64,000 nt of DNA from Mytilus galloprovincialis (Eukaryota > Mollusca > Bivalvia > Mytilida > Mytilidae). Location: positions 58,436,439 through 58,500,438 of the forward strand of contig NC_134847.1 of assembly GCF_965363235.1 (NCBI RefSeq), given 5' to 3'. The notes beneath the pieces were generated by a model that ran no database searches, was not told where the DNA came from, and saw only the letters and a program-made list of their open reading frames with translations. Below, piece by piece: positions 1,627-34,816 of the stretch. Numbering within the stretch: position 1 is the stretch's first letter; the number at the start of each line of letters is the position of its first letter. Made by a program: the position numbers and the translations under genes.

Positions 1627-4600
1627 AAAACTCAGTACGACTCTCTCACTAGACGTTACAATAAAAGAAATTGTTCCTGTGCAAATAAACACGAATGGAA
1701 TTTCGCAATCAAGGTATGTCATGTCTTAGAATCACTTCATACTGATATAATCAAAATCGTCGTGATTTTCAACCAAGAAAACTTCAAGGTAACTGGAGGA
1801 TTTCTCAATTTGGTTTCTCTGGATATTAAATGAGACACTTCGTTTGGGAGTCCTTAAAAGTGCACAAGTACAATTGTGAATATGCAGTCGACATAAATAC
1901 ACACAAGCACTAGTTCAAATTCTAGAAACCGGTTGTTCTAAAGTAGATGAATGAATAAACTGTTGCAATTGAAAATCATTGTCAAACATAATAAGCACAT
2001 TCATCCATAAAAAATTTCAGTCTAGTTCAAATGAGTAAACAGATTTATTTATGTGTACAGCACATGTTTTTATTTCAACCAAAAGTCCGTTTATAAGATT
2101 TATCATAACGTTTTTCTCCACATTAATACAAGTTCAAGTAACGGCATGATATTGTTTTTATCAATGAAGTGATGAAACTTTCCTCTTTGATTTTTTTATT
2201 TAAATTGTAGATCTTTAATGGATATTTTTGCAAAGAATCAAACAGGGACTGTCTTACCGAGTGCCGAACTTCAAAGGTAGTATCACATTAGCCGTTAATT
2301 TTCATGAAATTTGTTCGAATGTGCTTGGCAGTCTGTTAAATCTTCTTAACTGATCATAAAGTTATACTGAATACATGTCACATATAGTTAAAGTTCATTC
2401 CTTCGTAAAACGTAAAAATAAAAAAATATTTGGTTTCTTTCCATTGAGACAACTCCCCACCAGACACTAAATGATGTGGAAAATAGCACCCTATGGCCTT
2501 CACCAATGGGGAAACCCGCACCGTATAGCAAGTTATAAAAGTCCCCTACATGATGAAAAGGTAAAACCATTCAAACAATAAAATCATGTAATCTTGTTAA
2601 TGTATTAATTGTTATGTGCCTTACGTCTAGTGGCAAATATTAGAAGAATATTAAGGACAAAAAAATAGATATTAATGAATCATATAAGTAGGTTATTCAA
2701 AGAGGGTCTATACAATTGAAGGGCTGGAATTTTCAGTGCAATAAAAACCAATGGTATATTGGAAAGAGACAGAAAGTGTGACTTGCTACAGTGCGCCTCC
2801 AGAATCCGGTTAGCCAGACAGTCGCCGAAAGATGTACTATAATTTATACCTAGTAAATCATTTGGCTTTGATCTGTATGTGTTTGAGTGATAGTATGTGT
2901 CTAATATTTTTTTGGCAGGAATCCGTTATTAATAGTTTTCTTAATGATTAATAATGCAGACCTTTTTTGTTTGTTTGTACCTACATGTGTATCATTTTAA
3001 AATATTTACGAGATTTGAACTTCATTTAACTACTTTTGTCTTTAATATATGATTTATCTTTATATATTGAAATCAAATCTTTCAATGGATTACTGCTACG
3101 ACATATTTTGTTGGATTGTAAGACAACACGAAATCATGTGTAGTAGCTAGTGTTTTACCAATGATGAAACTAGTAATTTGATATTGGAGTCTTCACCTGA
3201 CAAAAACTTATAAATTCTAAGGTATCATCCCGTTGTAACGTGTTTCTATTCTGATACTCTTTTATTTCATTTCTGCAGTCCGATGGGTGTAACTGTGTAT
3301 TACTTTAAATAGTTGATAATCTTCCAACAAATGATATGAAAAGCATCTGACTAAAAATACGTGTTCTAACTGTACATGTGCATTTAATGTTTGTTTTGCT
3401 CTAATAATACAATTATACGATCTTTCTATAATATCGTTTTAGGATTGTTTTACAGAATATGGAAGCTGTCCAAGCACTGTTTTTTCAACAAATTGAATCA
3501 ACTGTTGAATCAAAAACTTCTTCTCTCTCAGCATCACAGATCGCTTTGATCGTATTAGCTGCCATTATACTTATCGGAGGCATTCTTTTTATAATGTTTA
3601 TATTCAAGACAAGGAAGAGGTAATACTTTATTTTATCCAAATTAATTTTTTTGTTATTTTAAAAAGATTTGCAAACAAACAAAGTTAATACAACATTTGC
3701 ATATGGAGTGCATAGAGACAAAAAACTGTTAATTGTGAAAACATTTCTTAAACCAAAACCAACAACTGTTTGAAAGAAAAACAGTAATTGTATATCAACT
3801 TGTCTAATCTTAAAATTTACAAATAATTGTATGGTAGTTGCATGCATTATTTCCCTTGTATTCTATACCTTTTTCAGTAAATTTTGATACAAAAAAAAAA
3901 CACAAAACCTAACTTGTTTTTACAAATATTTGTTTTATTCATCATAAGTTTAAAAAAATATATATTTTATAAGTGTTTTGTATTTTGCCTAATACGCTGC
4001 ATTGTGAAGATAATTGACCGACATTTTATTATTCAGATTATCGGATGAAATATCAGTCAACTCTGTGGATGAGGAGAAGGTTCCTATAGACGAACAAAAA
4101 GGTCCTATAGCTGATCGTATTTCTACGCAGTCGATAGAAGTAACAGTTGAACTTGGAGAGGAACTAGAAAAAACATCAGACTATGATGGCTCACAAAATA
4201 GCAACGAGCAGGCAATTTCAGAATCAAATGCTTTAGGAACTATTAATCCAGCATTTCAAAACGATACCGAAACCCTCGACATGACTGAAATAAGCGCGAT
4301 TTCAACAACTGACGAGGCGGAACAACAGCTTAATCAGTTAAATGAATTGTTGAACATGGAAGAAAATAAAGCATCAATAACAGACTACCACATCGAAGAT
4401 ACAGTAACAGATAGCAAAGGTGGCAAGAACGTGGATGATGATAATGCCCCACATGTTTCCAATGACACCGGGTCAGATTTATATCCTCCAAAAGCAGATT
4501 ATACCAATATCAATAACCTAAGATCTGAAAATGAACAATTGAATGAAAACGAATATCTTGCCGTCAATGAAGATATTAAAGATGAATTGAATGAAAGTTC

Positions 4601-5048
4601 AGGCTTACCACAAGCTGACTATGAAAACAATGAAAATGAAACACAAATAGGGGGAAATAATGACCACGTGCTTGATCAAGAATCTGGCGAGTTTATAATG
4701 TCACCTGATAAAGTTGATGACCCAGACATAGACTACAACACATCAAAGGTCACGCATAGTGATGAAAATAGTGTTGACGTGCAAGACGAAGAACCAGATA
4801 TTGATTACAATGAAAAACAGGTACGTTTTTCTACTGTTGTTTTGGACAGTGAAGAGAACAAATTTGAGCCTTTAAAAACTGATGTTGACGATCAAAGTGA
4901 CGTCTTATCGAATGAAAACGAAACCCCGGATGATTCTGTAGACGGAGAAGAAGAAACGACTGAAAATGAAACAATCAATGATGAAACGGATATAAATGAA
5001 AGTGACAAGAGTTTACTTCTTGCCGAAGAAGAAACTACTGCTTTCTAA
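1627..5048 (+). CDS. Cadherin-like type I membrane protein, 3' part (last four exons; gene continues left of window)
   Basis: Four exons: 1627-1713, 2211-2276, 3443-3619, 4037-5048 (stop 5046-5048), joined in phase 2 throughout. The first three encode a membrane-proximal segment and one membrane helix (about 3550-3605, rich in I, L, A and G) followed by KTRKR, a stop-transfer sequence. The last exon encodes an acidic cytoplasmic tail of about 336 residues. No EC repeats lie inside the window. Identity rests on the complete neighbour at 14252-34816: matching exons there are 84, 66, 192 and 898 bp against 87, 66, 177 and 1012 bp here, with identical phases. IVLQNMEAVQALF aligns with MILEHMSEIQALF. 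The tail carries EEPDIDYNEKQVRFS, nearly identical to the neighbour, and a partial second copy DDPDIDYN. The acceptor at 3442 was chosen over one at 3454 because it keeps phase and the paralogue alignment. Likely role: cell adhesion or recognition (inference). Confidence 0.82.
2429..2582 (+). repeat. Interspersed repeat family A, diverged copy (intronic)
   Basis: Family A is defined by boxes TTGCCAATGAGACAACTCTC, AAATGACACAGAAATTA, GAGCAAAGCCCATACCGCAT and AGCTATAAAAGGCCCC. This copy keeps ATTGAGACAACTCCCCACCA and ATAGCAAGTTATAAAAGTCC in the same order. Short, non-coding and found on both strands across the window, so SINE- or MITE-like. Confidence 0.65.
4037..5048 (+). other. Terminal exon of first cadherin-like gene: acidic cytoplasmic tail
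   Basis: The single exon codes for the whole tail: highly acidic, rich in D, E, N and S, and low in hydrophobics, so probably disordered. Blocks shared with the second gene's tail are SDY-x-GS near the start, an NPAF/NPVY motif, a short leucine-rich stretch (QLNELLNMEE here), and EEPDIDYNEKQVRFS at about 4788-4832. The KQVRF core fits the RVxF-type docking consensus for protein phosphatase 1; that function is inference. The DDPDIDYN half-copy starts near 4714. Confidence 0.8.
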
Positions 5049-5408
5049 AGAATGGTTTCTAGCAAGTCCATACTTTCGAGAGAATTGTCACTTACATTTT
5101 TAACTTTCCGAAGAACAAATCCTGTATCATGATTGAATAAGTTTGATTAATATTTCGTATTTTATTGGGTGTTTGTTTTAAACAGATTTCATGTATTTCT
5201 TATCCAAATGATGCATAGTTTCTGTTGTACATGTTTATTTATTTAAGAAGATTTTTTTTAATTGTGTTATAATGTGACACGTGGTTTTGACTTTATCTAT
5301 TGCATGTATATACGTATAGACTAGTAGATTTTTAGGAATATATTTTTTTCTTGTATTAAGAGTTGATTGTAAAGAAACTAAAATATATGTTGACGACCAG
5401 CAGTATCA

Positions 5409-5414
5409 AATAAA
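5409..5414 (+). promoter_or_regulatory. Candidate polyadenylation signal AATAAA for first cadherin-like gene
   Basis: AATAAA lies about 360 bp after the stop codon and is followed by T-rich sequence. It would give an AT-rich 3' UTR of roughly 380 bases. It is the first canonical hexamer I see after the stop. Confidence 0.45.
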
Positions 5415-6687: not shown

Positions 6688-7090
6688 ATGTATAGCAAAA
6701 TTTTATATATATATTTTGCTTGGTTAGTGGTTAGGGATTCATGGCCGTACATTTCCAAGTCTATGGGTATCCAGCATTTGTTTCCGGTTTAGCTTTTCTT
6801 TCTTTTTTAGTAAGTTGATGGAATTTAATATTATTCTGCAACTCCTCTCTCTGGTACTACTTAACACAATGACAACAAACATTCTGTTCATGTATAGCAA
6901 AATTTTATATATATATTTATATTGCTTGGTTAGTGGTTAGGGATTCATGGCCGTATATTTCCAAGTCTATGGGTGTCCAGCATCTGTTTCCGGTTTAGCT
7001 TTTCTTTCTTTTTTAGTAAGTTGATGGAATTTAATATTATTCTGCAACTCCTCTTTCTGGTACTACTTAACAGAATGACAATTAAACATA
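6688..7090. repeat. Direct duplication, about 201-bp unit, two copies
   Basis: The segment starting CATGTATAGCAAAATTTTAT at 6688 repeats at 6889 with only a few substitutions and a small AT insertion. Both copies run through TGGTTAGTGGTTAGGGATTC to GGTACTACTTAACA. High identity suggests a recent local duplication. Confidence 0.85.
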
Positions 7091-8159: not shown

Positions 8160-8342
8160 AAGTCGGAGAGAAACCAATTGTTTTACATTGTCACTTCGCG
8201 GCCTTTATAGCGGAATATGCAGTATGAGCTTTGCTAATTGTTGATGTCCGTACGGTGACCAATATTTTTAATTTCTATGTCATTTGGTCTCTACTTGTTG
8301 AGAGTTGTCTCATAGGCAATCATACCACATCTTCTTTTTCTA
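8160..8342 (-). repeat. Interspersed repeat family A, reverse copy
   Basis: Read on the minus strand it begins AGAAGATGTGGTATGATTGC and continues through GAGACAACTCTC, AAATGACAT, CACCGTACGG and TATAAAGGCCGCGAAGTGAC, the standard family A order. Confidence 0.75.
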
Positions 8343-14251: not shown

Positions 14252-17200
14252 ATGTTGTCTTGGTTCAGAGAAATATGTTTGTTGTTTCCATGCATCTTTA
14301 GTTTTATATGTGAGTATATCTAGAAATAAATTGAAGCAACTTAATATATTTTGATTGCATTTAGAATTTATATTTAGCATATCGGCAAAAGTCTATAACA
14401 AAAAAAAAATCCCATGATGAGATTGCAAAGGGGAAGGAGTTGAGTACTAAAATAATTGTGCCTATACCAATTCAAAAACCTGGGATCGGCAGTACCTGTC
14501 TGTAGTTATAAACAAGAGTTTTGTGTCCGTATGTTAATTTAGTATATATTTCAAAACTGTGTGTTGCTGTTTAATTTATTCAGGTTTTTTTAAAGTTCGG
14601 GACAATTAAGAAATTGTCTCCCTGAACACATCACACTTTCCTTTTTATTCACAGTGAAGACAATGTTAGCCATGAATCCTTCATTATGTTATCACATAGT
14701 ATGTAGATTTTTTTTTATATTTTTGTTTGTTTGTAGATGCTGATTGCCCGGATGAAGCTGCATTTACTAAACATACAGCTGCAATTGCTACTATCTACGA
14801 CAACCAGACAAAAGGTATAAAACTTCATCTTTATATCCATTTTATTTGTAACATTATCAATGCAAACATAATCAATTACTAGTATTGACACGTATCGATT
14901 TGGAGTATTGAGTTTGCATCCTTAGTTTGAAGTCAACCAGGAAATTATTGCTAATATATCTGAAATATTGCTTCCAACTGCTAATGTAAAAATAATGATA
15001 AAATACAAATATACGAAAATGATGTCTGTGCAATGTCCAATCGTGGTTAATGTTTGGCATACTCTAGTTGCCTTCGTTAATCAGTACTGTAAATTATTTT
15101 ATTTTCAGATGTTTTTCACTAGAAACTCAGATTATAATTGAGTTGTTGGTCGTTAATTCATTAATCTAATTATTTATGCATATGTCAGCATATTCAATCA
15201 TTTGAATTTAAACCGTTTATATTTTTCAAGGAGATCTAGTTTTTACGTATCCTAAAAGTTTGAATTCATCACTAACATTTAAGAGAAACTGTCCAGGTCT
15301 CATCATACAAGGAAACGAGATTCGTTTAGCTCTGACCAATGTTGATTTGAACGAGAAATGTGTAAGTGATTAATTGGATGATTTTACAGACTTTTTGCAT
15401 TGATAATAATTATATGTCATATATATTCTGAGTTGCAGATTCACTGGTTTAGATTTTAAATTATTGGAATTCTAAGCATCTTGTAACTTAGTCTAACCTT
15501 CATTTTTGAGCGGAAAAGCTTTGTTTCGTCATGTATAAATACCCGTTTATTGTCGGGTGAAAAATATGTTTGTTAACTTTTGGTCTCTGATGGAAAGTTG
15601 TCTGGATTCTCATACCACATTTTATTATTTTTATACTTGATATTTTTTTTATTCATAACACTGCAACTCATCTATTTCAGGATGAACCTTTTGGAGAATG
15701 CGAAATATATTGTGATAAAACAGTAAGTGAACAAAGTAAAACTATGTTTTTACATATTTTTCAGAATTTGAAAGAGTTGCAGTTCTAAATAATTGATATG
15801 TGTAGGTCTACCGTTACGATTTCATTCAGACGCCTTACAATACGATTTTTTAGCAGCCGCAAATGAAAAGTTTTAACTTTTTCGCTTACAATAGTTAAAT
15901 ATGCTCTAAGTGCAAAATGAATTATCGACATTGTCTTCAGTGATTATAAACACAGTACTACACATTGTAATTTAATAAGAAGAAAGTATTTAATTAACTC
16001 AGATCAGTCACGTTGCAAGTCATATATGTTGTTCTGCGTGTACCTTTATTTTAGGCATGTATTGTTGATTTTGTAGCTTAAAGAGTCCCTGTTTCCCAAA
16101 AGGATAAATTTAAATCAAAAGGGGCCAACATTTTCACAGAAAATATATACAGTTAACGTCACAGAGGTAGCTATATTTCCATACATATAAATATAAGAAT
16201 GTGAATTTTTTTACACCGCATTATTTTTATTTTACTTCAATAATTTGGTATTAAAAATGAAATATAAGACACAAATCTTTAAAACTCCAAACAAAATAGC
16301 ATCTCCAAAGTATTTAAAAGAAAGGAAATCAAAATCCCCTGGTTCATTTGATAATTCACACACAGGGATAAACCTATCTGGGATAGTTGTACCTTTTAGG
16401 GTATTTGTTAACAACCAATAGTGCAATAAACTGAATAATTATTAAAAAAAAAAAGAAAAAAAGAAAGGAAATGAAGAAGTGTGTATGTAGCCTCTGAGTT
16501 GTCTAACTGGTAATCAAACCACATGTTCTTTTTTTATATTCGAGTAATCAAATAAGTTTCTGAAACAACTGTTGACAATCATACAACAGAAAAGTGTAGA
16601 TTGAACAACTCCATCCCACCCAAAACCAGGGATAATTAAATACTTCGGATTGGTAACAGGTTTCTGCTGTACTTGTGTCAAACATTTTCAAAACCGTCGA
16701 CTGACATGTACTGTAAAAGAAAGACCTGTTTCAAATTCCGCGATTAAATAGTTTAGGACTTATAATATAAACTCTAATACAATGTATTTATAAAAATCGA
16801 AGGAAGAGATAATAATAATAATAAATTCTTTATTTAACGAAGATAACCAACACATATAAAAAAAATCTACTTTATTTCAGTATAACGTTCGGAAATAAAC
16901 GGTATTCATTTTCAAACAATGCGGAAGTATTTTCTACGGTTTTATGTATCTGTGAGATTTTTATTTTATATTTCAGAATAAGTTGAATGGTTCGGTCATA
17001 TTTAGTTTCAATAATGGAGACATAAAACGCCATGACTGCTATTATCCTGACGACAAAGTTTTCATTTTAAAGGTTAGATTAAACTTTTTGGATGTTCTAA
17101 TTTCATTTCAAGTTTGTTCATGATTGTCTTTATGAAATATGTTTATTTTCTGTGATACTCTACTGTCATTGCAACTCAAACCCAAAATATATATAAATTG

Positions 17201-20200
17201 ACACAAGTCTTCAAACAAAAAGAAGCTATAAAACCATACGAGAAAAAAATATCATATGGTCTGAAAAATAAAATTGAGAATGGAAATGGGGAATTTGTCA
17301 GATAGATGTAACAACCCGACCATAGAGCAGACAACAACCGAAGGCCACCAATAGGTCTTCAGCGCATCGAGAAACTGCCGCACCCGGAGGAGTCCTTCAG
17401 TTGGCCTCCAAACAAATAAGTACTTTCTTTCAGTGACAATGGACGTCATACCAAACTCCGAATTATACTCAAGAATTAAAATTAAAATTCATACAAGAGT
17501 AACAACGGTCAGAGGCTCCTGACTTGGGACATGCGCGAACATATAAGAGTAACTAACGATACATTTTAGACTTGTGATTATAATTTTATTTTTGCGAAAA
17601 GTACTTTGGACCTTGACAAAAATTAGTTAAGTCCTCTTAGCGGTAATATTTTCTTGTAAATTCAAGTTTTATGCTTAGCAAAATTAAACTACAATAAATC
17701 ATTCATGTAGGTCGTTTGCATGCAAGAATTACATAAATGTAATATGTGAACACTAATGACAACTTGTTTAGTGTTCATTCAATTAATATATATTTCTTTT
17801 GTTTTTTATTCTTTTTACTTTTTTCAGAATTCTGGGAAGCAAATATTTGGAATAACATATCCTGGAAAGATTTTTCTTACAAAACAATTGGATTATGAAG
17901 ATGGTGACAGGAATTTCGACTTGGATATAACACTTGATGTAAGGTCATCCATGTTATATTTTTTAATAAAATGTATTACATTATTTATCTAGTACAACAA
18001 AAGTTTGAAAAAAATATTATTTTTTAAAAAGCCTGAAAAATTTAAAATCTGGAACTGAAGTCATCGAAATGGTGGATTTTTTTAATTGACAAAAGCCCAT
18101 ACTTTTAGCAATCGAGTGACGAACAGCCAGGCAGATTGTTAATGAAATCATATGTGTGCCATCTGCTTGTTGACTTGTTCCTTTATTCTTATTAGACAAA
18201 ATTTCTAAAAAATAAAAAGAAGACTACACAAGCCTTACAGTTCACACATAAAAAAAGAAGATGTGGTTTGATTGCCAATGAGACAACTCTCCACAAGAGA
18301 CAAAAATGACGCAGAAACTTTAAAACAACTATAAGTCGCTGTACTTAAAATATGAGCAAAGCCTATACCGCATAGTCAGCTATAAAAGGCCCCGAAATGA
18401 CAATGTAAAAACAATTCAAACGAGAAAACAAACGGCCTAATTCATGTACAAAAAATGAACGAAAATCAAATATGTAACATATAAACAAATGACAACCACT
18501 GAACCACAGGCTCCTGACTTGAGACAGGCAAATACATATAGAATGTGGAGGAGTTAAACACATGCCGATATACAGATAAAGCCCATGTACTGAATAAACC
18601 CGTGTTTATCTTGGAGTTAATTTTAGACAAAGAGGATTGCCTGATAACTAAACTTAAAAAAAAAACACCGATGATTTCATTGTTTTCCAATTTTTAACTT
18701 TTTGTGTAGCTATATTCCCGCAGCACTGTTCCTTATGTATCTTTCCTACGATTATAAGCATAAACATCGTATTTTGTAGCCTATTACCTTGTTTTAATTA
18801 TGAAAATGTCAACATTGAATAAGATTCCTACAGTTTGAATAAATCTAAATATGTTTCTCTTTTTCAGAACAGAAACCGCACCACGAAAACCACAATTCGG
18901 GTTAATGTTATTGATGTGGACGATATGGATCCTGTGTTTGACCATGACGATTTCAAACTACAAATATCCGAAAATGTAATGTTAACAAGTATCTTATAGT
19001 GTGCATGATTGCAAACATGATAAAATGATAAATGTAAAGTAGGATTATAAATATATATCTGATTCTACCACTGCATCGAGTGTGATACCATATTTATAAA
19101 AAAAATTGCCTGCTTATTATTTGAAAATCATTCGAGAAACAGATTCCACCACCATATCTCGTGTAATACGATATATATCCGCCCGAGACAGTTAAATTTT
19201 CACATTTAAAACGCGAGGCTTTCCGAGCGTTTCAAATATTTAAAATGTAACTGTCGAGAGTGGATAAATATTGTATTACACGAGATTTGGTGGTGGAATC
19301 TGATTCTCTAATGATTTTCAAATAATAAGCAGGCAAAATTGTTCCTTCTTTTCGAGTGATCTGCAAACAAATGTGTTCTTTCTACGTGAAGTCATCAGGC
19401 CTGGTCGCCTTTTTTTCATGCCGTCACAATAGGAAATTCAGAGGAAAACATGAAAATTCGACGTCATAATCGGATTTTAACCAATGAAGAACTGAGATCA
19501 AACGAACCACACGTTGATTAAATTCTTTTTTATACAATGGGTGCAGTTAGGGATTAATTGTCGAAGAATTAGAGAAAAATGCATACACTATTGATGAGAT
19601 TTATATGAATTTAGATTGCAAATGACCATAACATTTTATACATTTTGTGGCTATTTTCTGGCCTTAACTTCTCAAGGAACGCTCCAACCCAAATATTTGA
19701 AAGCCAAGGATAGATAAATGTACACGATAGAAACGTTAAGAGCTATAGGACAAATAGAAAGGGACATCAAACTTATAGATTCAAACGTATTGAAATTTCA
19801 ATTTACTTGTGATTTGTCATTGTGTATTGTGCTATTTCAGGTTAGTTATAGCATGTCCTGGCAGAAAACAACGCCAGTAATATCGGCGCATGACCGAGAC
19901 AGTGGTACTGGGAAACAGGATATTGAGTTTGAAGTGTACGGTTAGTCTTTCAGTCAGTTAACTAACTTGAGATATAATTAGGAATTTGCATATGATCATT
20001 CTATTGTAAACATAACGGGTAACTTTACTATTTGTTTGATACGAGTATTTTGTTTTCACTAAACCGATTCAAGAGCACTTGAACGCAGAAAGGACAAAAC
20101 ACGACCTCTGTTTAAACAAGTGGGTGTAAATGTGGAAAGTGTAAAAAGTATCGTAAATAACAAAAAAGAAATAATATTATCACCTTAGTGATTATTATAA

Positions 20201-23200
20201 CATTATCATTTGAAGCTATATAAGCCTACATTTAAATTTCAGACAATAATGACAAAAGTGTGTTTGATATCAATAGAAAAACAGGAGAAGTAAAGCTTTT
20301 CAAGATATTTGACAGGGAACCTCAAAGCATATACAACTTTAAAATAAAGGTATACATGTACTCAGACATATTCATGTTTCCTTTCATTAGAATTATCTAA
20401 TGATCATCTTATGTTATTTAAAGTTGAGAGGTAAACACAAAACAAGCACCTCGTCATAACTATCAAGGGAAGTAACGAGCTTGTTTTATCCTGTAGTCAA
20501 GTCACAGCATTGAGAGGCTATATATTTGCCTAGGATTCAAGAAGACAAAGTATTCTCGACTCATTATAACATAAACAACACAATGAAGTTACTGAGACAA
20601 TTTAAACTTATTTTGAATACAAAAAACCAAATCGGTAAAAGGAATGACTCCAATAAATACCAAAAGTAAGACATAAACGTTCCAGGAGAAGGCCAGAACA
20701 GTTGTTATCTCAATTATAGAAAACAAAGGTTTCCATTAAATTGTAAACACATTTGGACATACAAACAAAATTATCAGTGATATAATAAAGAACTAATGAA
20801 TGATGATCCATGTACATTTATAAATGGGAATTGTTTTACATTCGTCATTTCGTGGTCTTTTATGCGGTATATGTTTGGTCATTTTTGAAAGCCGCACGGT
20901 GACTTATAAATGTAAACATATGTGTCATTTTGTTCCCTAGTGGATAGTTGTCTCATTTGCAATCACATCACATCTTCTTTTTATATGTATAGTATTAGCT
21001 GTGAAACTAGTTTATTAAGCTGACTAAAATAAAACCAACGCATTGTATTAATAAGCGTACACTGCTAACATATAGTATGTTCTCAAATGGTGCTTTTTTC
21101 ACACCTAGGTGCATATACGGATTTATTTTATTTAATAGTATTTGTGTTTTAGGTTTATCAGATAAATGATCATCGCAGAAGTGCTACAGCAAATCTTAAT
21201 ATAATCGTATCAGATACAAATGACAATAAACCAATATTTGACAAGTCAGAATACCGTGCTAATGTGGATGAACACAGCAGTAAAGGAACCCTAGTTCTAA
21301 GAGTCCATGCTTCGGATAAAGATAGTGTATGTATTGAACACAAAGACATATGAAAAAACGTTTATCGACTCCACTTATTATTTCTATAGAATAAGCCTTT
21401 TTTTCTATTTTGTAAATAATGTTAGGTAAATCAGAGTGATATTTATAGATTATCGTTGATTATCTCAACGAGATTGATTTTCTCGCTTGAGCCGGGAAAA
21501 ATTGCAATGATAAACTTCTATGTTTGTATACAAAATGAAGTTGTAATCAACCACACACATATTATAATCCTGCAAATATATCACAGGAGTATGACAATTA
21601 GGTAACTACTATGGTTCAACCCATGTGAATAAAAGGTCTTTGGGGGTATACGTCAATAAGAAAGCACCCGAAAGACTTAAATAACAAAAAGACTTCTACA
21701 TTTAAATTCAGCGTGTCTGAGTATTTGTACATCCCGTAAACCGAACTCTTCGACCCTTACAGAGTTTGTTCATATCTATATTGGAGATGTCCATATGACC
21801 ATAATTCTACCCATTAGTCGACTATAGCAGTTCTTCCGAAATTCGTAACTCAACGTTATTCTGTTAATGTAACCAATACCTACCTCATATAATTGAGAGC
21901 ATTGTGTTTTATCCATTAAATTTATGGGTAAATAATAAAAATGTGTTTGTTTTTCAAATTAAAGATTGCGCTTTACTTTTTCAGGGAAATAACGCAGTTG
22001 TGATATATTCAATAGAAACCATACAATCTGTGTTTCAAATAAATGAAAATTCTGGTGAAATACTAGTAGCTAACTCAGAAAAGTTAGACAGAGAAGTAAA
22101 CGAAACGTTTATTTTAAACGTAAGTGTAAAAACAATCAAATATCACAAGTGATGTCGCTTATTTGAAGACTTTATTGCAGAATTGGTCAAAGACCACTAT
22201 GTACAATAAGACATATAATAAAAGTTAAAAATAAAAAAATGCACCACCACACTCCTGCTTAATGCGATGTGAACTGTATAATTTAAAAACAAAAATGCTA
22301 TAACTCAAATCCAAATAGTCTGTTCAAATAGTTTTGTGTTCTGCTAACTGTTTGTTTTGGGTTTTTTTTTTTTTTTTTTAAAAACCCTCTGTGTTTGGTT
22401 TAGTGTTTGAATCTTATGTGGGTATGATTTGGATTCTGAAATCACAGATTTGTTATTTACAGATTAAAGCTACCGATTCGAAGAAAAATGATTTTTATGA
22501 CCAAGCAGTAGTTACAATTAAAGTTTTAGACAAGAATGATAATGGTCCAGTCTTTACTCACAATAGTTATCACTTTAACTCAACAGGCACGTACATTATT
22601 GTACAGGTAAATGAATAACTTTGATTTGTTATATTGAAAAATAATATATGTTAATGCAGTCTAACTGCAAAGGTGTTCGGTTGTCAAATATTGAAAAATA
22701 ATATTTTGCAAGTAATTGATTTATTTACATAGTAGTACATTGTTCACAATAGTTCATTTTGCTGAATTTTCTATTTACATTGCAAAATTGTAACAATCGT
22801 AACAATATACATTCATTATTGAAGTCGAAGATAAAACATGAAAAGAAATGTTACATTCTATTTTGCAACGTTTTTCATATCGATAATACAAATAAAGATA
22901 TATTTCTGGGTGTGGCTGTTAAATTACGAGTCAAGTTCAAAAATTTACGGTATCAATCAAGTCCAGTTACTTTTACAGTGACTAAAAAATCTAGAATTAT
23001 ACAAGTTAAATGATTGCAAGAATGGTTGCTAAACATTCAGTGGCAAATATTTCATGAATGTTACTGACGATTATTTTTTTAAAGAAAATATAAAGATGAT
23101 TTGTGGTGAGAAATAACCCCCTCTCATAGTGCGTCAGTGAAGGGTTAACATATTTTTGAAGTTAAGATAATCTTATTCCATGTATAATTATATCAGTTGC

Positions 23201-25010
23201 AAGTAATGTGTAAAATAATAAAAATACCGCACTCCAAGGAAAATTCTAAACGAAAGGTCCACAAACAAACGGCAAAATCAAAAACTGTAACACATCAAAC
23301 GAATGGATAACAATTGTCATTTTCCGGACTTGGTACAGGCATTTTCTTATGTAGAAAAAACTACATTAAACCTGGTTTTATAGCTAGCTAAACCTCTCAC
23401 TTTTATTGTAATATATTGTAAAATTATTTGCCTTTTACATTTGTAAGGTTAAAGCCAGCGATAGAGACAAAGAAGATAATGGTAAAGTTGTTTATACCTT
23501 GGAATCTGTACAACGTAATATCAAGTTAGATTCTAACACTGGAAGACTAACAATGATTGGTCAACTTCCAACTGATACTAGTATTAGGGTAAAAGCATGT
23601 GATTCTGTGAAGATCGTCAGTAGCAGGCAAGTAGTTCTTATGAATTAGACTGGTCTCAGTTGTTATATGCTGATAATTGTCATTAGTAGTTTCTATATTA
23701 AGAAAGGTGTTGCCATGAATTATAATTGATGTGGTCATAATTATAAATCAACTGTTGAATAATTCTGAAATACTAAGGCTTTTCTACCTCAGAAATAAAT
23801 TACCATATCAGTATTTGGCAAAACTTTAAGGAATTTTAAGTACTCAATGCTCTTCATTTGGCCTTTTTAACTTTTTTTATTTGAGCGTCACTGGTGCGTC
23901 TTTTGTAGACGATTCCTGACGCAAAAAGTAGATTTTAATCCTAGTATCTATCATAAGTTTATTTAGAGAAATTAAAAATATTAGTAAGTTTACATCCTAA
24001 TTGAATTTGTAGATTACACACTGCCTATTTTAAAGAATATGACTTAAATGTGTCATTAAGCATACACCAATGTTGCTTAATCTACTATGTATAATGCAAA
24101 CTTTCAACTTATTTAAATCTTTAAAAAAATATCTCAAAGTTTTTTTTTTATCACATTTGTAGAAGATGTACATTTGCACAAGTTTTCATTTATGCTGGAA
24201 TGGTACACGTGAATAGTTATAATTTGACGGCAACTGTTATGGAAAATGTATTGGTTGGATCGTATGTCAGTAATATTGAGGTATGTTTATCATAACATAC
24301 ATATTGTACTCTTTGGTCGGATTGTTGTCTCTTTGACATATTCCCCATTTCCATTCTCAATTTTATCTTAAAGTCGTGAAGAATTATGTAGCATCGTAAA
24401 AGTACCAGATCCTGGATATTTGTGTTTTCTGATCTGACGGTTAACTAGAAATATTTGTTTTAGTTTTTGTAACTTTAAATTAAAGACATATACTGTAGAA
24501 AAATAATATTAATTTTGTTTGATTTGATCTCAAAAAAAGAAACACTTTTTGAAACTTTATTCAATGTGACTAATTTAGGTAAACACTATATTTGTTAAAA
24601 TTATAAATTATACATTTGTACTTCTATCTTTTTTTATATTTCAGATTTCTGGTAATAGATACGAGATCATCAATAAAAATGTTCCTTTCACAATAGATAT
24701 TTCAAGGTATTTATACAACTTAAAGATTTTCTTTAAGGCAAATATATTGTCTTGTTTTTTCAATGTTATCGTAGATTCCTACCTATTTACTTAAGTAAGG
24801 TAGCTAAATTTAAAATAAAAACAGCAGATACAGAAAAATAAATTCCTTGTATCTGTAACGCTTTTCTGGATTCATCACTGATGTATATACATTTGGCCCG
24901 TATGCATAAAGCTATTTAAGTTGAGATGTTTTTCTAAAAGGACGGATTTATCTGCATGTCCAACAAATAATGAATACTACGATTCGATTTGTTAACTCCA
25001 TTGGTTTCAC

Positions 25011-28000: not shown

Positions 28001-31000
28001 TAACTGATATTTTCCGAATTTACTCGTTGATGTTGAATGTGATATCAAGTCCACTCATTGAAATAAGCGGTTAGCTTAACTTAGATATTACAAATTGTTT
28101 CCAGTATTGTTTTTTATTTTTACAGTGGAATTGTCAGAACAGGATCATTATTGGACTATGACGAGGGAAAACAACATTTTGACTTAACAATTCGTGTATT
28201 TAATAAAGAGAAAAATGTGAGTTATAATAGAATCGTATACGACTGTTTGTGTGTAAATTTCTCTAAAAACGTCTCCTAACATTTGTGTCTAACCATGACT
28301 TTATTCCAAAGTGCTCTCAATATTTATAACATTTCCACTATGACAGCTTGGTGTGTGCATTTGAGGTTTTTAAAAACTGTTTCGCTATAATGGGATATAC
28401 TATAAAAATTGTAAGGCCTAAACATTGCACTGATGTTGATTTTTGCAAATTATTAGTTAATAATATAAACATTTGGTATATTTTAACTCAAATTATAAAA
28501 AAAAGTAACCATGTTTTGTCATTCAGATACTCATTTGACAATTGTTATTGGTCAATGATGTCTGATGAATATTTCTGCAAACACATGTCATGTTACTATT
28601 GTATAAAAATTGTATTAATCAACCATCTTTAACGATAAATAACATTACAAATGTATGGATATGAGAAGTCTTGATATACAATGTTTATAGTTATCATAGG
28701 TACTAGGATTATAATTTAGTACGCCAGACGCGCGTTTCGTTTACATCAGACTCATCAGTGACGCTCATATCAAAATATTTATAAAGCCAAACAAATATTA
28801 AACGTGTATGATACACGATCTTTAAAATATCGCATTCCTGTGGTTTTGAACAATTTTAAGATTATGACCATTTTATGTGTGATAAATTCACAAGAAATAA
28901 TCCAAATCCTCTTGTTGACCTACAATATCTACTTAAACTCGTTCACAAATCTTCAAAATGAAAATTAACTTGAAGTGATATATGTTTTGATAACTCCATT
29001 TTAGATGATTGCAACAATTCGATTGGCTATTGAAGTTCTGGATGCAAATGACAACTCTCCGGAGTTTTCACAGCATCTTTACACATTTGCCTTACCAGAA
29101 GATATAACAGCTGATACTGTTATTGGAGTTGTTAAGGTAGGTTTGCCATTTGATACAAGACTTTTTGGTTTGAATGCACTTGGAGTTCTGTATTTTTTGT
29201 TATTTTGCTTTTTAAATGATTTGACTGAGCACAGATGGTTGATATAAATCCTCATCGTTTTTATTTGTTTCATTATTTATTATTAGCTAAGTCAGCAGTT
29301 TGACGAGTTTAGGTATTTGCCTTTGTTTCAGATTTCATCATTTTCTATTGCTGCTTTACATATAGGTTATACTTTTAATAAGAGTACTTATTGTTGGTAA
29401 AGTATATCATAACTAGTTTAATCGGTTCAGATCATACTACTTTCACATGTAAATTATAATCGAGAAGGTTATCATACTATTTTTTTCTAATAGGCTACAG
29501 ATAAAGACACTGGAAATAATTCTGCAATTCAATATTCCTTGCAGAGCAGCATGTACGTACATATATTGTTTCAATGATTTCCTTTAAATTGTTTTAAATG
29601 ACACAACAAAGTAAATGAAATTGAAAATATAGCTTTGTTTGTGTTAAAATTATTGCTAATAAGAATCACAATAAAATTCAAAATGGAGCGGATTTCAGCA
29701 CCTATATGTCATCATAAGGTTTTCAACAATAAGGAAACCTCTAAATTTAGTCGCCTTAAACGTCTATGACGTGACATGATAATAAGCATATCACGTGTTA
29801 ACTATAATGCACAATGTTCTTCGCTGATTGTTGAAAGTGCAGATCGTGGTGCAAATTTCTGTTGTTGATTTGTTGCAACCGTCACAACATTCGTAGATTA
29901 TTATAAGAAATATAAGTATCAGATATATCAGTCGAGCCTAGTCGAATAATAGTCATTTAAGAAGAATTTGCATGAAGATTGACCATAGTTTTGATAATGT
30001 TTAAATGTTATTATTATATACTTCAATGATTCATCTAAATCACAAAAATACAAACAAAAGTGTGTTATAATTTGTACCATATAACCCACAAAAGAATAAA
30101 TCTGTCATGTCAACATTTATCAGTTAAAAGTGAAATATACGATCTATTTGTAGTGACTCGACAACATTTCTAGTCGGTTCAAACGGTAATATCAGAATGA
30201 AGGATTCACATAATGATATGAAAAGTCTGTATCAGATAACCGTGGTAGCATCTGATGGCGGTGCTCCTCAGTTAAGATCCTTCGCTCAGATATTGGTAAG
30301 TAATGTCATTTTATTGCTTTGTGCTGATACATAACATAGCTGATATATAACATATATAACAGTAATTAATTTTTGATGATTGATATTTTTTTTTTTGCTT
30401 TTTTGAAATCTGAGCCAACAAAATGGAAATAACAACGTTAATCAATGTAACAGCAACATAATCCCCCAACAAAAGAGTTACAAACTATATTTGATATTAA
30501 TGTTTCACAAATATTTATTTTTGAGATGCCTTAAATCCGTATATGTGTCTTTGTTTTTTAAACATATCAGACGTTATGCCTCCTTTTTGGTCGAATCGGT
30601 TTCTTCAATGCTAGTTGATGAATTTGTACAGTATTTCAAAGAAATTCAGATGTTTCCCTTATGATAAATTCGATATTGTATTGACTTCAATTAATCCAGA
30701 ATTTGTAATGAAATAATATTCATAAACCTGCAGATCATTTTATTTATTGACTAAACAGATTTATAAAATAAATAAAGTGTCTCATTAATAATTTTATCGT
30801 TTCTAAACTACTTTTTTTTTACTTTCAGATTACACGAGTTAGTATAGTCGAATCACAAGTAAAGTTTGGTACACCATTAGTGGAGAAAAAATTAAAAGAA
30901 AAGAAAGATGAACTTGAGAGGTTTGCAAAATAGTACAATATAATTTATGCTTAAACTTGTCGAAGCAAATGGTAATGTATATCAACGCTTTGGTATTACT

Positions 31001-34000
31001 AATCACATTTAGAAGTAGATTTTGAGACATTTAGAAATGAGATAGATCAAAGATATTAAGATTAATGCAGAATTAATTGAACATCAAGATTATATTTAGT
31101 TAAAAAGTGTTGTTCCAAAGACGGCTAAGTCCTAGGGTAGAAAAAACTAGGTGTTTTGAATAATTTGGCATTTTTTAATCAGATAATTTATAGAAAATGT
31201 ACATGTCAACTATTTTGCATTTCTACCCTCAAATACTGACTACTCGGCTGGTGGTGCCATCAGTGAAGATACATCCACCATGCAGCAGTGGTATCGATCT
31301 ACCTATTGGTAAATAATCACCAAAGGTATTTGTTAAGAATCATCAAAGGTATTTGTTGAGAATCACCAAATGTACCAAGCTAATATTTGATAAGGTAAAA
31401 GCGCTTTTTGAATATATAAGACTCGACAGTGAGATCAAATCAAAACAGAAGTTTAAATCAAATACGAATTTGTAGAGCTCCTACGTGATATTTGTATCGT
31501 CAGCGTCCTGATTTAATCAGCAACAATGTTCAGTGGGATTTTAATTTTTGTTTTTTTCCTAATTTACAGACAAATTGGTGCCATTCTGAAGATCAAAACT
31601 CATATAGAGGGCGTTAAGGGTGTAAAACTGAAGAATCAAAATCAACAAATAAGGTAGACATTTGTATAAATGTATAAACATTAGTACTGTAATTTTTTGT
31701 GCACCGCACTATCACCATGACATGAGTTACTATACATCGAAAAGTTTTGACGATATCAATAATGAATTTTAAAATACATATTTAAGTTAAACAACATTGT
31801 CTTTTTTTGATATTTTTAGTTGATAATTGATGATTGTTGTTTGTCTTAAGTCCAGTGGCAAATAGTCCAGACGAGAACAAATCAATATAACTTGAATATT
31901 ATGGAATGTTGAATAGGGATATCAATGTTGCCTTAAATGCTACCTAAGACTTCTACATAGAGTTGTTTTGTGGGATCTTCAACGAACAGCGTGTCCACAA
32001 TTTTGATCGGACGATGCTGGGAATTTATATTCTCGCACAATATACTGCCAGTCGAAAGAAAACCCGTATTTCGTTATCCAAGTTTATAACCAATGGTGAT
32101 ATTCTTTATGCAAAAATTTACTATGAACAAGTTGTATATCAAATGCGCCTAGAATAAATAGAGTATTGAATGACCTTTCCCTCATTCTGTTTACTAAGTT
32201 CCGGAGTAAATTCAGTTCAAAAATACAAATCCAACTTATTTTTAATCTTGCATTAATCAGACTGTTATTTCTGTTTTCAGAGTCACCAAATACACTACAC
32301 CGTGTTCTAATACACATACAGTTCTAAATTTCTTTATGCAATTATCTTCGAGTATTAAGATTATATATTTGACACTGATCTAGCAATCATTTTTTTGTCT
32401 AGGTCTTATATGTATATTTCTGGAAAATACAACAATGAAACGGTCATAACTGCCTCCACACTTAGAGTGTAAGTACGGAATACTATTAATTTGAAAAGCA
32501 TTTTTTATAACTTTTTTTTAAAAATGAAGTCTTAGACGAGGTTGAACACAGAAATATGGAAAGTGCGAATTCTTACCAAATATACATCTTTCCAATGGAA
32601 ATATTCTGGGTCGAATCGGCGCAAAAATCAGTATCGTAAAACTCAAGCCATTGTCACGATTGTGTTTAAAAACGTTTCGTATAGATTTTTTTTCTGAATT
32701 ACACGTTGAACGCAGTACAGTTAATTTTAAACGATTTACAAAATTCATTTTTATTTGTAATATAGAAAATTATATCTCTATATTACAGTATGATATTGGA
32801 ACACATGTCAGAAATCCAGGCTTTATTTGGAAACCAGAGGACAATATATCTACCTAGCCTTCATAGGGAGGGTATTCGTGCTGTAGAAATTGCTTTAATT
32901 GCTATTGGTGGTGTGATATTTATTGCCAGTATTATTCTCATCATCGTTATTCGAAAGCAATGGGGACTCTACACTATAAAGTAAGTAGTTACAATATTCA
33001 TGTATAAGAGTAGACAAATGCTCATATGAGGTTGCATAGGAGTATAGCAATTTGAGGTGTCCATCTTAGACAGACAATTATTGTGGAGATTTTTTTAAAT
33101 AAACAAACAAAGGAAATGGAAATTTCATGGGTTGTCTTCCCCAGGCACATGTTACCTTAGACGAATTTGGCACAACTGTTTGAAATGTTTAGTCCTCAAT
33201 GCTCTTCAATTTTTGTTTGGCTTTATTATTATTTGTATCTGAGCATGAGTTTTTGGTTGACGAACCGCGCGTCTTGCGTATTATATTATAAGCTTGGTAC
33301 CTTTGATAACTATCTACACCACTGGGTCGATACCACTGCTGCTGTATGTGTCATCGCCGAGGGTTTCACCAGCCCAGTATTCAGCACCTCGATGTTAACA
33401 TAATTATCAATTCTATGGTCATTTTTATGAATTAACTGTTTGCAAAAGCACCAATTATTCTAAATACTAAGGATTTTTGTACCCAAGGCATAGATTGCCT
33501 TATACGTATTTTGCACAATGTTTTGGAATTTTGGACCCTCAATCCTCTTCAACTTGATAATACTTGTTTGGCTATATTACTACTTTTATCTGAGCGTCAC
33601 TGATAAGTCTTTTGTTGACGAAACGCGGGTCTGGCGCAAATATAAACTTTCAATCCTGGTATTTAAGATGAGTTTATTTGCAACCTTTTTGAAATTTTCA
33701 CTTAAACTGTGAGTTTTGTTTTCTTTTAAATAAAAGATGTGGGGTGTTCGTCAATGAAACGATGATATAAAAAGACTTTTAGAGTGAATCGTACGGTCTT
33801 AAACTAAAGTTAAGTGTTTATCAAATATGTTAGGTGCGAAATCACTTAGTGTTAGTGACTTAATTGTACTATCTATAATATGTATATCTTCAATTATTTT
33901 TTTTTATCTTTATTTCAGACAACAGAAGTTTGATCGGCTTCATAGCAATTTGATTCGTAAAAGTTCGTTATATGAATCACAGGAAATAAAGGTTCGACTT

Positions 34001-34816
34001 GACGATGAAACATCTGACTATGCTGGCTCGCTAAATACACAGGAAGTGGAAATAAGTCAAAGCAGTAACGCAGCATCTCTTGATGCTACAGCTTTTTCTA
34101 ATCCTGTTTACGAAAGTATGCACGAAACTACAATGACAATATCGCCATCAACAGCTGCTGCCACCAACGAAGCACTGGAAAGTCTACAAGACTTGGCAGA
34201 GAGACTAAATATAGAAGATAAACCATCAAATGTAGATGGAACATTAGAAGAACATTCGGAACAAACTTTTGTTAAAAGTGCAGATGGTACCCAAATTGTA
34301 ACATCTGTAGAGACATACGATGATATTGATATGAGTGGATACAGTAACTTTGAAATTAATGAACAAGACAATATACCACGTATTGAATCCTCTAACTTAA
34401 TGAAATTCGAATCAGATCAGTCATTATTTGACCAAGATGCTGAAAATGGAGAACACAAATACGAAGATCAGGACAATGAACCAAACATCGACTATAATGA
34501 TAAACAAGTTCGGTTCTCTTCCATTGTTCTGGATACAGAAGACGACGTATTCCATCCACTGAAGGAGGAAACAATTACCCCTGCACATTTTGAGTATGAT
34601 AGTGATCGTGATGACAGGGAAAGTATGGGGAGCTCCTTTCCTGATCTCTCTAAACTCATGCACCACTACTCTGACGAAACAGATAGGGCAGATGAAGAAA
34701 TTCACTCACCAATGGACTTTTTAAAAGCTGATGAAATCCGACGAACTCCGACTGATAATGGAACATTTCACTTTGGATTTAGAGCATCTAAACAGGATGA
34801 AATAACAAAATTTTGA
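14252..34816 (+). CDS. Complete 24-exon cadherin-like type I membrane protein (about 1132 aa)
   Basis: Exons: 14252-14309, 14737-14814, 15231-15361, 15681-15722, 16977-17072, 17828-17938, 18868-18975, 19841-19940, 20243-20349, 21153-21326, 21985-22119, 22463-22606, 23448-23626, 24163-24280, 24645-24706, 28126-28216, 29005-29136, 29494-29552, 30154-30295, 30829-30920, 31570-31653, 32403-32468, 32789-32980, 33919-34816. They total 3399 nt with consistent phases and one stop. Order: signal peptide (1-21), a Cys-rich N-terminal part, about six EC repeats, a membrane-proximal non-EC domain, one helix (about 802-824) and an acidic tail of about 308 residues. EC calcium motifs seen: DVDDMDPVF, DTNDNKPIF, DKNDNGPVF, DANDNSPEF. 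The intron after 23626 uses a GC donor. Likely an adhesion or recognition receptor; I cannot assign a vertebrate orthologue. It sits 9.2 kb after a paralogue in the same orientation. Confidence 0.88.
17266..17545 (+). repeat. Interspersed repeat family B copy (intron 5)
   Basis: AATAAAATTGAGAATGGAAA, CAACCCGACCATAGAGCAGA, CACCCGGAGGAGTCCTTCAG, GTGACAATGGACGTCAT and AGAGGCTCCTGACTTGGGAC occur in order. Nearly full length and well conserved. Confidence 0.8.
18252..18545 (+). repeat. Interspersed repeat family A copy, near full length (intron 6)
   Basis: AGAAGATGTGGTTTGATTGC, GAGACAACTCTCCACAAGAG, GAGCAAAGCCTATACCGCAT, AGCTATAAAAGGCCCCGAAA and CAGGCTCCTGACTTGAGACA are present. This copy shows that family A ends in a CTCCTGACTT box like that of family B, so the two may share a tail. 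Confidence 0.8.
19104..19338. mobile_element. Foldback (hairpin) element with about 110-bp arms (intron 7)
   Basis: The left arm (from 19106: TTGCCTGCTTATTATTTGAA) and right arm (ending 19336: TTCAAATAATAAGCAGGCAA) are inverted copies. They continue inward through CAGATTCCACCACC, ATCTCGTGTAATAC and CGAGACAGTTA to a short centre near 19215. A few substitutions separate the arms. It has no coding capacity: a MITE-like foldback. Confidence 0.85.
19841..22606 (+). other. Exons 8-12 of cadherin-like gene: EC2 and EC3
   Basis: Typical EC signatures appear in order: AHDRDSGTGKQDIEFEVY, FDINRKTGEVKL, DTNDNKPIF, then HASDKDSGNNAVVIYSI, FQINENSGEILV and DKNDNGPVF. These give the DRD/DKD, beta-strand and DxNDNxPxF calcium-site elements of two complete repeats. 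Exon junction phases are 0/1, 1/0, 0/0, 0/0. Confidence 0.85.
20817..20982 (-). repeat. Interspersed repeat family A, reverse copy (intron 9)
   Basis: On the minus strand it reads AAGATGTGATGTGATTGCAA, ATGAGACAACTATCCACTAG, CACCGTGCGG and ACGAAATGACGAATGTAAAA in family A order. Confidence 0.75.
23205..23402 (+). repeat. Interspersed repeat family D copy (intron 12)
   Basis: Family D is defined by CACTCCAAGGAAAATTC, AACGAAAGGTCC, AAACGGCAAAATCAAAA, CACATCAAACGAATGGATAA, GGACTTGGTACAGGCATTTT and TAGCTAGCTAAACCTCTCAC. Matching copies lie at 57445-57610 and 60043-60245. The right end falls shortly before exon 13. Confidence 0.75.
23815..23965 (+). repeat. Interspersed repeat family F fragment (intron 13)
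   Basis: Family F is defined by CTCAATGCTCTTCAA, TTTGGCTTT, TGAGCGTCACTGATGAGTCT, TTTTGTAGACGAAACGCG and ATCCTGGTA. This copy has CTCAATGCTCTTCATTTGGC, TGAGCGTCACTGGTGCGTCT and TTTTGTAGACGATTCCTGAC. Confidence 0.72.
24303..24366 (-). repeat. Interspersed repeat family B, short reverse fragment (intron 14)
   Basis: Read on minus: AAAATTGAGAATGGAAATGG, GGAATATGTCAAAGAGACAA and CAATCCGACCAA, the 5' part of family B only. It starts 23 bases after exon 14. Confidence 0.75.
25013..27695 (-). mobile_element. 5'-truncated LINE (non-LTR retrotransposon) with GTAA microsatellite tail (intron 15)
   Basis: Minus-strand frames code the end of a LINE ORF2. The reverse transcriptase part has QNGFRRNRSCEEDFHTL, YVFFIDTKTAF, GVKQGCILTPTLFSV and YEDDIALIAPDKESLQRML, the last holding the catalytic DD. 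Downstream parts (TKIVHFR, LYGSGIWGTKSFSAI, then the C-terminal region to about 25354) are split by frame changes near 26450-26560 and 25740-25766. A (GTAA)n run at 25013-25055 on the plus strand forms the 3' tail, as in CR1/L2/RTE-type LINEs. The endonuclease part is missing. Clade not resolved. It accounts for most of the 3.4-kb intron between exons 15 and 16. Confidence 0.85.
28126..30920 (+). other. Exons 16-20 of cadherin-like gene: EC5 end, EC6 and linker
   Basis: LLDYDEGKQHFDLTIRV and DANDNSPEF close EC5. ALPEDITADTVIGVVKATD, KDTGNNSAIQYSL and ITVVASDGGAPQLRSFAQI form EC6. No DxNDN motif follows; exon 20 instead gives a Lys/Glu-rich linker (KKLKEKKDELE), which suggests the EC array ends here. 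Confidence 0.82.
28690..28790 (-). repeat. Interspersed repeat family F, reverse fragment (intron 16)
   Basis: Contains CTAGGATTATAATTTAGTAC, GCCAGACGCGCGTTTCGT and CTCATCAGTGACGCTCATAT, the reverse of the family F core. Confidence 0.75.
31220..31400 (-). repeat. Interspersed repeat family F, reverse fragment (intron 20)
   Basis: CTCGGCTGGTGGTGCCATCA, ATACATCCACCATGCAGCAG and TGGTATCGATCTACCTATTG are diverged reverse matches to the CACTGGGTCGATGCCACT part of family F. A short internal duplication of the CACCAAAGGTATTTG box follows. Confidence 0.6.
31570..32980 (+). other. Exons 21-23 of cadherin-like gene: membrane-proximal domain and transmembrane helix
   Basis: About 70 residues with alternating strand-helix pattern precede the helix. 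VKGVKLKNQNQ, SYMYISGKYNNETV and MILEHMSEIQALFG align with the 1627-3619 exons of the first gene. It does not resemble an EC repeat. It recalls the ferredoxin-like SEA or membrane-adjacent domains of some cadherins, but this is inference. The helix is VEIALIAIGGVIFIASIIL and a few more residues, followed by RKQ. Confidence 0.72.
31845..31935 (+). repeat. Short interspersed repeat, CAGTGGCAAATA family (intron 21)
   Basis: CTTAAGTCCAGTGGCAAATA followed by GACGAGAACAAATC. Related boxes occur at about 2618-2660 (TACGTCTAGTGGCAAATATT) and 23035-23070 (CATTCAGTGGCAAATATTTC). Confidence 0.5.
33105..33700 (+). repeat. Interspersed repeat family F, two tandem copies (intron 23)
   Basis: The first copy has TAGTCCTCAATGCTCTTCAA, ACCACTGGGTCGATACCACT and TTTCACCAGCCCAGTATTCA. 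The second restarts at TTGGAATTTTGGACCCTCAA (33522) with TGAGCGTCACTGATAAGTCT and GACGAAACGCGGGTCTGGCG. This pair fixes the order of the family: after the CAGCCCAG part the unit joins back to its own start. Confidence 0.8.
33919..34816 (+). other. Terminal exon of cadherin-like gene: cytoplasmic tail
   Basis: Acidic, Ser-rich tail in a single exon like that of the paralogue. It carries SDYAGS, SNPVY, LQDLAERLNIED and NEPNIDYNDKQVRFS, then IVLDTEDDVFHPL. An upstream in-frame ATG at 33827 and hydrophobic codons before 33919 are intronic: the acceptor TTTATTTCAG ends at 33918 and the preceding exon needs phase 2. Confidence 0.85.

Follow-up and report, generated by a model that had tools for sequence, protein, structure and literature searches.

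The window, a 64,000-nt stretch of Mytilus galloprovincialis DNA (C10:58436439-58500438 of a 1.38-Gb assembly), was analyzed together with 60 kb of flanking sequence on the left and 40 kb on the right. It contains all of one cadherin-like receptor gene and the end of another in the same orientation. The gene 1 model, which is near full length, starts 30.7 kb to the left of this stretch, at C10:58405694, and ends at window position 5048; gene 2 extends from about 14252 to 34816. The distance between the gene 1 stop codon and the first putative exon of gene 2 is 9.2 kb, as the initial annotation of this DNA had reported.

Gene models and neighboring features

Both gene models (Table 1) rest on splice signals, on codon usage and on the homology of the genes to each other. 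The gene 2 model has 25 exons and encodes 1159 residues, the tentative signal peptide included, which replaces the 1132-residue product first proposed; the gene 1 model has 24 exons and encodes 1194 residues without a signal peptide. Only two weak candidates for a signal-peptide exon were found in gene 2, of which 14252-14309 was used, and none could be fixed in gene 1; the signal peptide previously assigned to gene 2 is not secured.

Table 1. Exons and candidate motifs of the two cadherin-like receptor genes (window coordinates unless marked).
Feature	Position	Strand	Remarks
Gene 1 exons 1-20	relative -30744 to -329 (C10:58405694-58436109)		upstream of window
Gene 1 exon 21 of 24, membrane-proximal domain	1627..1713	+	87 bp; phase 2 to 2; AG/GT bounds
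Gene 1 exon 22, membrane-proximal domain	2211..2276	+	66 bp; phase 2 to 2
Gene 1 exon 23, membrane-proximal domain end and transmembrane helix	3443..3619	+	177 bp
Gene 1 last exon, acidic cytoplasmic tail	4037..5048	+	1012 bp including stop
Gene 1 RVxF-like motif KQVRF	4815..4829	+	regex; within block PDIDYNEKQVRFSTVVLD, common to gene 2
Gene 2 exon 1, tentative signal peptide MLSWFREICLLFPCIFSFI	14252..14309	+	one of two candidates; no gene 1 homologue fixed
Gene 2 exon 2, Cys-rich N-terminal domain	14737..14814	+	
Gene 2 exon 3, Cys-rich N-terminal domain	15231..15361	+	
Gene 2 exon 4, Cys-rich N-terminal domain	15681..15722	+	ECEIYC
Gene 2 exon 5, N-terminal domain end and EC1 start	16077..16166	+	
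Gene 2 exon 6, EC1	16977..17072	+	
Gene 2 exon 7, EC1	17828..17938	+	LDYE
Gene 2 exon 8, EC1/EC2 linker	18868..18975	+	DVDDMDP, same in gene 1
Gene 2 exon 9, EC2	19841..19940	+	
Gene 2 exon 10, EC2	20243..20349	+	
Gene 2 exon 11, EC2/EC3 linker	21162..21326	+	DTNDN
Gene 2 exon 12, EC3	21985..22119	+	
Gene 2 exon 13, EC3/EC4 linker	22463..22606	+	DKNDN
Gene 2 exon 14, EC4	23448..23626	+	
Gene 2 exon 15, EC4/EC5 junction	24163..24280	+	no calcium-linker motif
Gene 2 exon 16, EC5	24645..24706	+	
Gene 2 exon 17, EC5	28126..28216	+	
Gene 2 exon 18, EC5/EC6 linker	29005..29136	+	DANDN
Gene 2 exon 19, EC6	29494..29552	+	
Gene 2 exon 20, EC6	30154..30295	+	
Gene 2 exon 21, membrane-proximal domain start	30829..30920	+	
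Gene 2 exon 22, membrane-proximal domain	31570..31653	+	84 bp
Gene 2 exon 23, membrane-proximal domain	32403..32468	+	66 bp
Gene 2 exon 24, membrane-proximal domain end and transmembrane helix	32789..32980	+	192 bp
Gene 2 last exon, acidic cytoplasmic tail	33919..34816	+	898 bp; NPVY and C-terminal ITKF
Gene 2 RVxF-like motif KQVRF	34502..34516	+	regex; within block PNIDYNDKQVRFSSIVLD

The last four exons measure 87/66/177/1012 bp in gene 1 and 84/66/192/898 bp in gene 2, and all are open, are entered in phase 2 and follow AG acceptors; these sizes and phases reproduce the initial annotation exactly. Leftward extension added twenty gene 1 exons upstream of the window, from which it follows that gene 1 also contains the N-terminal domain and six extracellular cadherin (EC) repeats. 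Their EC motifs are in register with those of gene 2 (DVDDMDP at relative position -19090 and at 18913; DVNDN at -5134 and DANDN at 29041). All 24 consecutive exons compared have identical entry and exit phases in the two genes and differ in length only by multiples of 3, an agreement that is partly built in and not fully independent because the final exon bounds were chosen partly by homology. Every gene 1 exon is open and bounded by AG and GT. Acceptors are AG throughout both genes and, with the signal-peptide exon excluded, donors are GT in 23/23 cases in gene 1 and 22/23 in gene 2 (the other being GC); a few splice sites have poor scores.

A splice predictor was also applied to the genes one at a time, with the stop codon supplied. 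Its loosest setting returned 23 of 24 exons exactly for gene 2 and 20 of 24 for gene 1, the middle setting 18/24 and 19/24, and the strictest only 8/24 and 12/24. The loosest setting called 28 exons in gene 2 and 46 in gene 1 in total, and thus over-predicts; the strict prediction skipped many short exons and was dropped as a gene model. An additional membrane-proximal exon (gene 1 ∼1136-1196; gene 2 ∼31187-31309) was considered and rejected, since exon 21 in gene 2 numbering splices in phase directly to the next exon in both genes.

Several other features were recorded. Two overlapping LINE-like ORFs lie on the minus strand at 25766-27225, inside the 3.4-kb intron between exons 16 and 17 of gene 2; RVT_1 matches 26446-27225 (E 3.9e-28), and 25766-26575 is without a match. 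An apparent gene for a Ser/Thr-rich single-pass membrane protein occupies 44345-50131 on the plus strand, where the ORF at 49856-50131 matches DUF5585 (E 1.6e-7) and the earlier ORFs have a cysteine pattern that we take to be MANSC-like, without a Pfam match. On the minus strand, 53857-54576 matches PHYHIP_C (E 1.2e-33), and ORFs at 56211-56516 and 58079-58390, which have no Pfam match, could represent exons farther upstream in that gene; 52310-52618 carries a weak remnant of a hAT transposase dimerization domain (E 3.5e-4; 20.8 bits, just under the cut-off of 21.4). Large C1q expansions are a hallmark of bivalves, and the C1q-domain repertoire of this assembly is very large (1055 candidates), with at least 150 passing the cut-off (150 of the 150 scored), all on contigs C1 to C14; a set of 14 chromosomes fits mussels. 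A search of the assembly for COX1 found no match.

Ectodomain architecture and relation to named cadherins

Both genes encode predicted single-pass proteins with a Cys-rich N-terminal domain, six EC repeats, a non-EC membrane-proximal sequence of ∼100 residues, one transmembrane helix and an acidic tail. That the two form a receptor pair with this common architecture is almost certain, and Pfam and the alignment of the two proteins support the initial annotation in each of these elements. The Cadherin profile (PF00028) matches six stretches of gene 2 (E 2.7e-53) and five of gene 1 (E 2.2e-41). The domain profile search that the initial annotation had proposed returned nothing but cadherin repeats over the cut-off, namely Cadherin and Cadherin_FAT4_N, the latter best on EC5 of both proteins; Cadherin_pro on EC6 of gene 2 fell just under it (21.9 versus 23 bits).

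EC starts and linker motifs are in register between the two proteins. Calcium motifs, called by eye from the alignment, persist at EC1-2 (as DVDDMDP in both proteins), EC2-3, EC3-4 and EC5-6. By the same inspection, both copies are without the DxNDN motif at EC4-5, without a DRE in EC4 and without a DxD in EC5, and a calcium-free hinge is therefore predicted at this position. Seven cysteine columns align between the ectodomains: the N-terminal domain contributes four, EC4 two and EC1 one. Each N-terminal domain has five cysteines, the fifth pair being offset in the alignment, and gene 1 has two additional unmatched cysteines in EC3 and EC6. Calcium would stiffen four of the five EC linkers, the EC4-5 junction would serve as the hinge, and the Cys-rich domain would cap or make up the binding tip. 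An ectodomain of this type implies a calcium-dependent contact receptor; judged from sequence, calcium-dependent adhesion is very probable.

Tandem EC repeats, calcium-linker motifs and a single transmembrane helix place both proteins in the cadherin superfamily. The catenin-binding cytoplasmic domain of classical cadherins is absent from the Pfam matches of both at E up to 1. Delta-type protocadherins encode their EC repeats in one large exon; EC1-EC6 of gene 2 touch 16 exons, with the same pattern in gene 1, which speaks against an ordinary protocadherin. Long single-frame EC stretches do occur elsewhere in the same genome. The delta1-protocadherins, which we take to comprise PCDH1, 7, 9 and 11, are also worth comparing. 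Their EC repeats number seven, close to the six seen here, and their tail contains CM3, a putative motif for PP1 docking (PMC7339444). The mussel proteins differ from them in the division of the EC repeats among 16 exons, in the absence of a protocadherin tail from their Pfam matches, and in their additional N-terminal and membrane-proximal domains.

Members of the FAT, Dachsous and CELSR families carry very long EC arrays, far above six repeats, with EGF and laminin-G domains in FAT and CELSR and seven transmembrane segments in CELSR. The mussel pair resembles them in its EC repeats and in the Cadherin_FAT4_N matches on EC5, but neither protein has a Pfam match to EGF, laminin-G or seven-transmembrane domains. 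Calsyntenins combine two EC repeats with a laminin-G-like domain, and none of their markers is among the Pfam matches. PCDH15_12th (PF23206, MAD12) was found neither among the matches of either protein nor in the genome. Matches to the PDB are generic: 162 distinct sequences were found at E up to 1e-10, and the best 60 are headed by CELSR1, protocadherins and PCDH15 and include CDH23. The initial annotation did not recognize the product as a classical, proto-, FAT or PCDH15 cadherin, and this holds where Pfam, exon layout or EC number allow it to be tested, the defining features of these groups being absent.

A chain of EC repeats, a non-EC domain at the membrane and one transmembrane helix are also found in PCDH24/CDHR2, PCDH15 and CDH23 (PMC8691648, PMC6092121). 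These proteins have 9, 11 and 27 EC repeats, respectively (the last number read from the domain name MAD28 in PMC8691648), whereas the mussel proteins have six, so all three are excluded as such. The pair further differs in its extra Cys-rich N-terminal domain and in a membrane-proximal domain that alone finds no sequence match.

These comparisons bear on the alternative that survives best, in which the genes are bivalve orthologues of a named invertebrate cadherin (e.g., CDH88C or a different cadherin of the insect type that has a membrane-proximal domain) that were locally duplicated and shortened and are ordinary members of their family. Like the pair, CDH88C-type protostome cadherins are invertebrate cadherins outside the mouse set: an echinoderm cadherin survey (PMC10734073) finds orthologues of CDH88C in every bilaterian it covers apart from three deuterostomes, mouse among them, and therefore by implication in oyster, and the profile libraries searched name no such family. 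The plan of EC chain, non-EC domain and transmembrane helix is, moreover, common to PCDH24 and, by their domain names, to CDH23 and PCDH15 (PMC8691648). Against this, no link to one named family emerged, the PDB matches being generic among the best 60 of 162, and the difference in EC number and the absence of PCDH15_12th from the genome argue in the same direction. We regard this alternative as possible, with the odds leaning against it.

Somewhat less probable, and on balance unlikely, is a second alternative in which the proteins are shortened relatives of the tip-link and brush-border cadherins (CDH23, PCDH15, PCDH24) whose membrane-adjacent domain (MAD) is truly ferredoxin-like and dimerizes at the membrane. 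By eye, the order of strands and helices in the membrane-proximal domain resembles that described for the PCDH15 MAD (PMC6092121), and the position next to the transmembrane helix also fits. When a profile of EC6, the domain and the transmembrane helix was compared with the PDB, stretches of two PCDH15 chains, 6c13 and 6eet, were the only ones among the best 60 of 140 chains to pass position 121, both reaching 140. With a shorter EC6 lead-in, however, the best stretches of both chains reverted to EC sequence, and a third PCDH15 chain, 6c14, reached position 59 but with an E of 0.92. The domain searched as a single sequence with 12 EC6 residues matched no MAD in the PDB, and as a two-row profile it had no PDB match at all. 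PMC10734073 also restricts CDH23 to deuterostomes and finds PCDH15 apparently missing in oyster. MAD homology is kept as a lead and not claimed, because the signal shrank as EC6 was trimmed; PDB searches with the domain alone recovered no MAD.

Age of the duplication and copy number

The two ectodomains align with a score of 859, compared with 54 ± 8 (maximum 78) in 200 shuffles, and the tails with a score of 215, compared with 74 ± 11 (maximum 104). These values, far above the shuffles, confirm the tandem duplication and the conserved tail blocks reported initially. Local-alignment identity is 243 of 743 aligned residues for the ectodomains and 82 of 232 for the tails. Between the genes dN is 0.76 and dS 1.88 (1084 codons). 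Codon pairs for identical residues use the same codon in 164 of 347 cases, close to the 151 ± 9 expected from codon usage alone, which indicates that synonymous sites are near saturation; together with dN < dS, this points to an old, constrained tandem duplication. The pair as a whole looks constrained, dN/dS being a joint value for both copies. Identity by domain ranges from 23/94 in the N-terminal domain, the lowest, to 43/106 in EC2, with 88/260 in the tail and 31/101 in the membrane-proximal domain.

Searches of the 1.38-Gb assembly with each tail (E up to 0.01 and 0.05) yielded no locus beyond the two genes, and the 37-residue conserved block (E up to 10) found the same two loci only; only the best candidates were scored, and the copy counts are lower bounds. 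The N-terminal part with EC1-EC2 gave 88 matches at E up to 1: exons of gene 2 itself, a single gene 1 exon (that of the EC1/EC2 linker; 43%, E 0.65) and, beyond roughly query residue 89, generic cadherins with identities of 22-40%. The N-terminal domain proper, and likewise the membrane-proximal domain with the transmembrane helix, found gene 2 itself as the sole match in the genome; because these searches missed the gene 1 counterparts, they would miss other equally diverged copies. Any copy that had retained the block should have turned up in the tail searches. Locally, the further tandem copies that the initial annotation had thought worth seeking did not appear, no match outside both genes in 164 kb being better than E 0.29.

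The initial annotation had suggested a lineage-specific recognition family, which as an explanation would mean receptors diversified for self/non-self or microbial recognition. The divergence of the ectodomains to about one third identity and the N-terminal domain as their least conserved part are in keeping with it, but the tail or its conserved block was found at two loci only, and the failure of the tail searches to find a third copy argues against an expanded family. Moreover, the tail and the membrane-proximal domain are about as diverged as most EC repeats. Outside the N-terminal domain, the tip therefore shows few signs of having been selectively diversified, and over the whole sequence dN is lower than dS. 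We consider this explanation improbable; the two genes look like old, well-preserved, near-complete tandem copies of one cadherin receptor and not like a large recognition family. Decay of one copy into a pseudogene, for which the lack of a fixed signal-peptide exon in gene 1 and the few poor splice scores could be cited, is highly improbable with 24/24 gene 1 exons open and bounded by AG and GT and a coding sequence that looks constrained.

Cytoplasmic tails and proposed function

The tails are ∼300-340 residues long and acidic, one containing 68 D+E and 26 K+R in 299 residues and the other 94 and 18 in 337. They carry NPVY in gene 2 and NPAF in gene 1, a DIDYN-type block with KQVRFS, and a C-terminal ITKF or TTAF, respectively; NPx[Y/F] would be an adaptor site, and a C-terminal T-x-F a PDZ ligand. 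KQVRF is the sole regex match in each tail of the loose form of the PP1-docking RVxF motif, [KR]-x(0-1)-[VI]-x-[FW], and sits in the single stretch by which the tails match each other genome-wide (44 residues, 52%; 43 residues, 53%). The loose form also occurs in 936 of 5000 shuffled gene 2 tails and 259 of 5000 shuffled gene 1 tails, and the two KQVRF copies are not independent of each other. KQVRF does not conform to the four-residue RVxF consensus quoted in PMC3554735, because the residue before V is Q. In the gene 1 tail (4014-5048, plus strand) the PDIDYN block occurs twice, as PDIDYNTSKVTHS and PDIDYNEKQVRFS, the first copy lacking the RVxF-like phenylalanine.

The conserved tail block is the strongest clue to signaling in the sequence. 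The tail would convert contact to signaling by docking protein phosphatase 1 (PP1) at the KQVRFS block, with NPx[Y/F] as a candidate adaptor site and the C-terminal T-x-F as a candidate PDZ site. Among adhesion proteins, the delta1-protocadherins with their putative PP1 site CM3 are a precedent for PP1 on a cadherin tail (PMC7339444), and the TMEM132 proteins have an RVxF motif as well (PMC6030884). The tail may dock PP1, and it may also dock a PDZ scaffold; PP1 docking through this candidate motif is a tentative proposal, and PDZ docking an equally tentative one.

Taken together, the best explanation of the locus as a whole, to which we assign a probability of roughly 0.6, is an old tandem-duplicate pair of cadherin receptors, unassigned to a named family, that would act as calcium-dependent contact receptors and signal from their tails through candidate PP1 and PDZ sites. 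Ligands or expression may differ in part between the copies. A bolder version, which we think unlikely, would see in them an undescribed molluscan cadherin subfamily: a six-EC ectodomain, hinged and capped by disulfides, would control a PP1-carrying tail, and the two anciently duplicated partners may bind each other across cells, by analogy with CDH23 and PCDH15. Among the papers listed on cadherins of molluscs (bivalves and Mytilus included), lophotrochozoans and protostomes, on membrane-adjacent domains and on cadherin-PP1/RVxF interactions, the pair appears in no title or abstract opening, which is weak evidence of novelty as sequence is unsearchable as text.

Mollusc adhesion receptors outside the vertebrate families seem, from the literature listings, to be poorly catalogued. 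Should the pair prove to be a known protostome cadherin, its value would lie mainly in annotation, and it does supply annotators with a gene model. The discovery is modest; in an old two-copy cadherin with a conserved candidate phosphatase-docking site, the possible coupling of a contact receptor to PP1 could be tested on a small scale.
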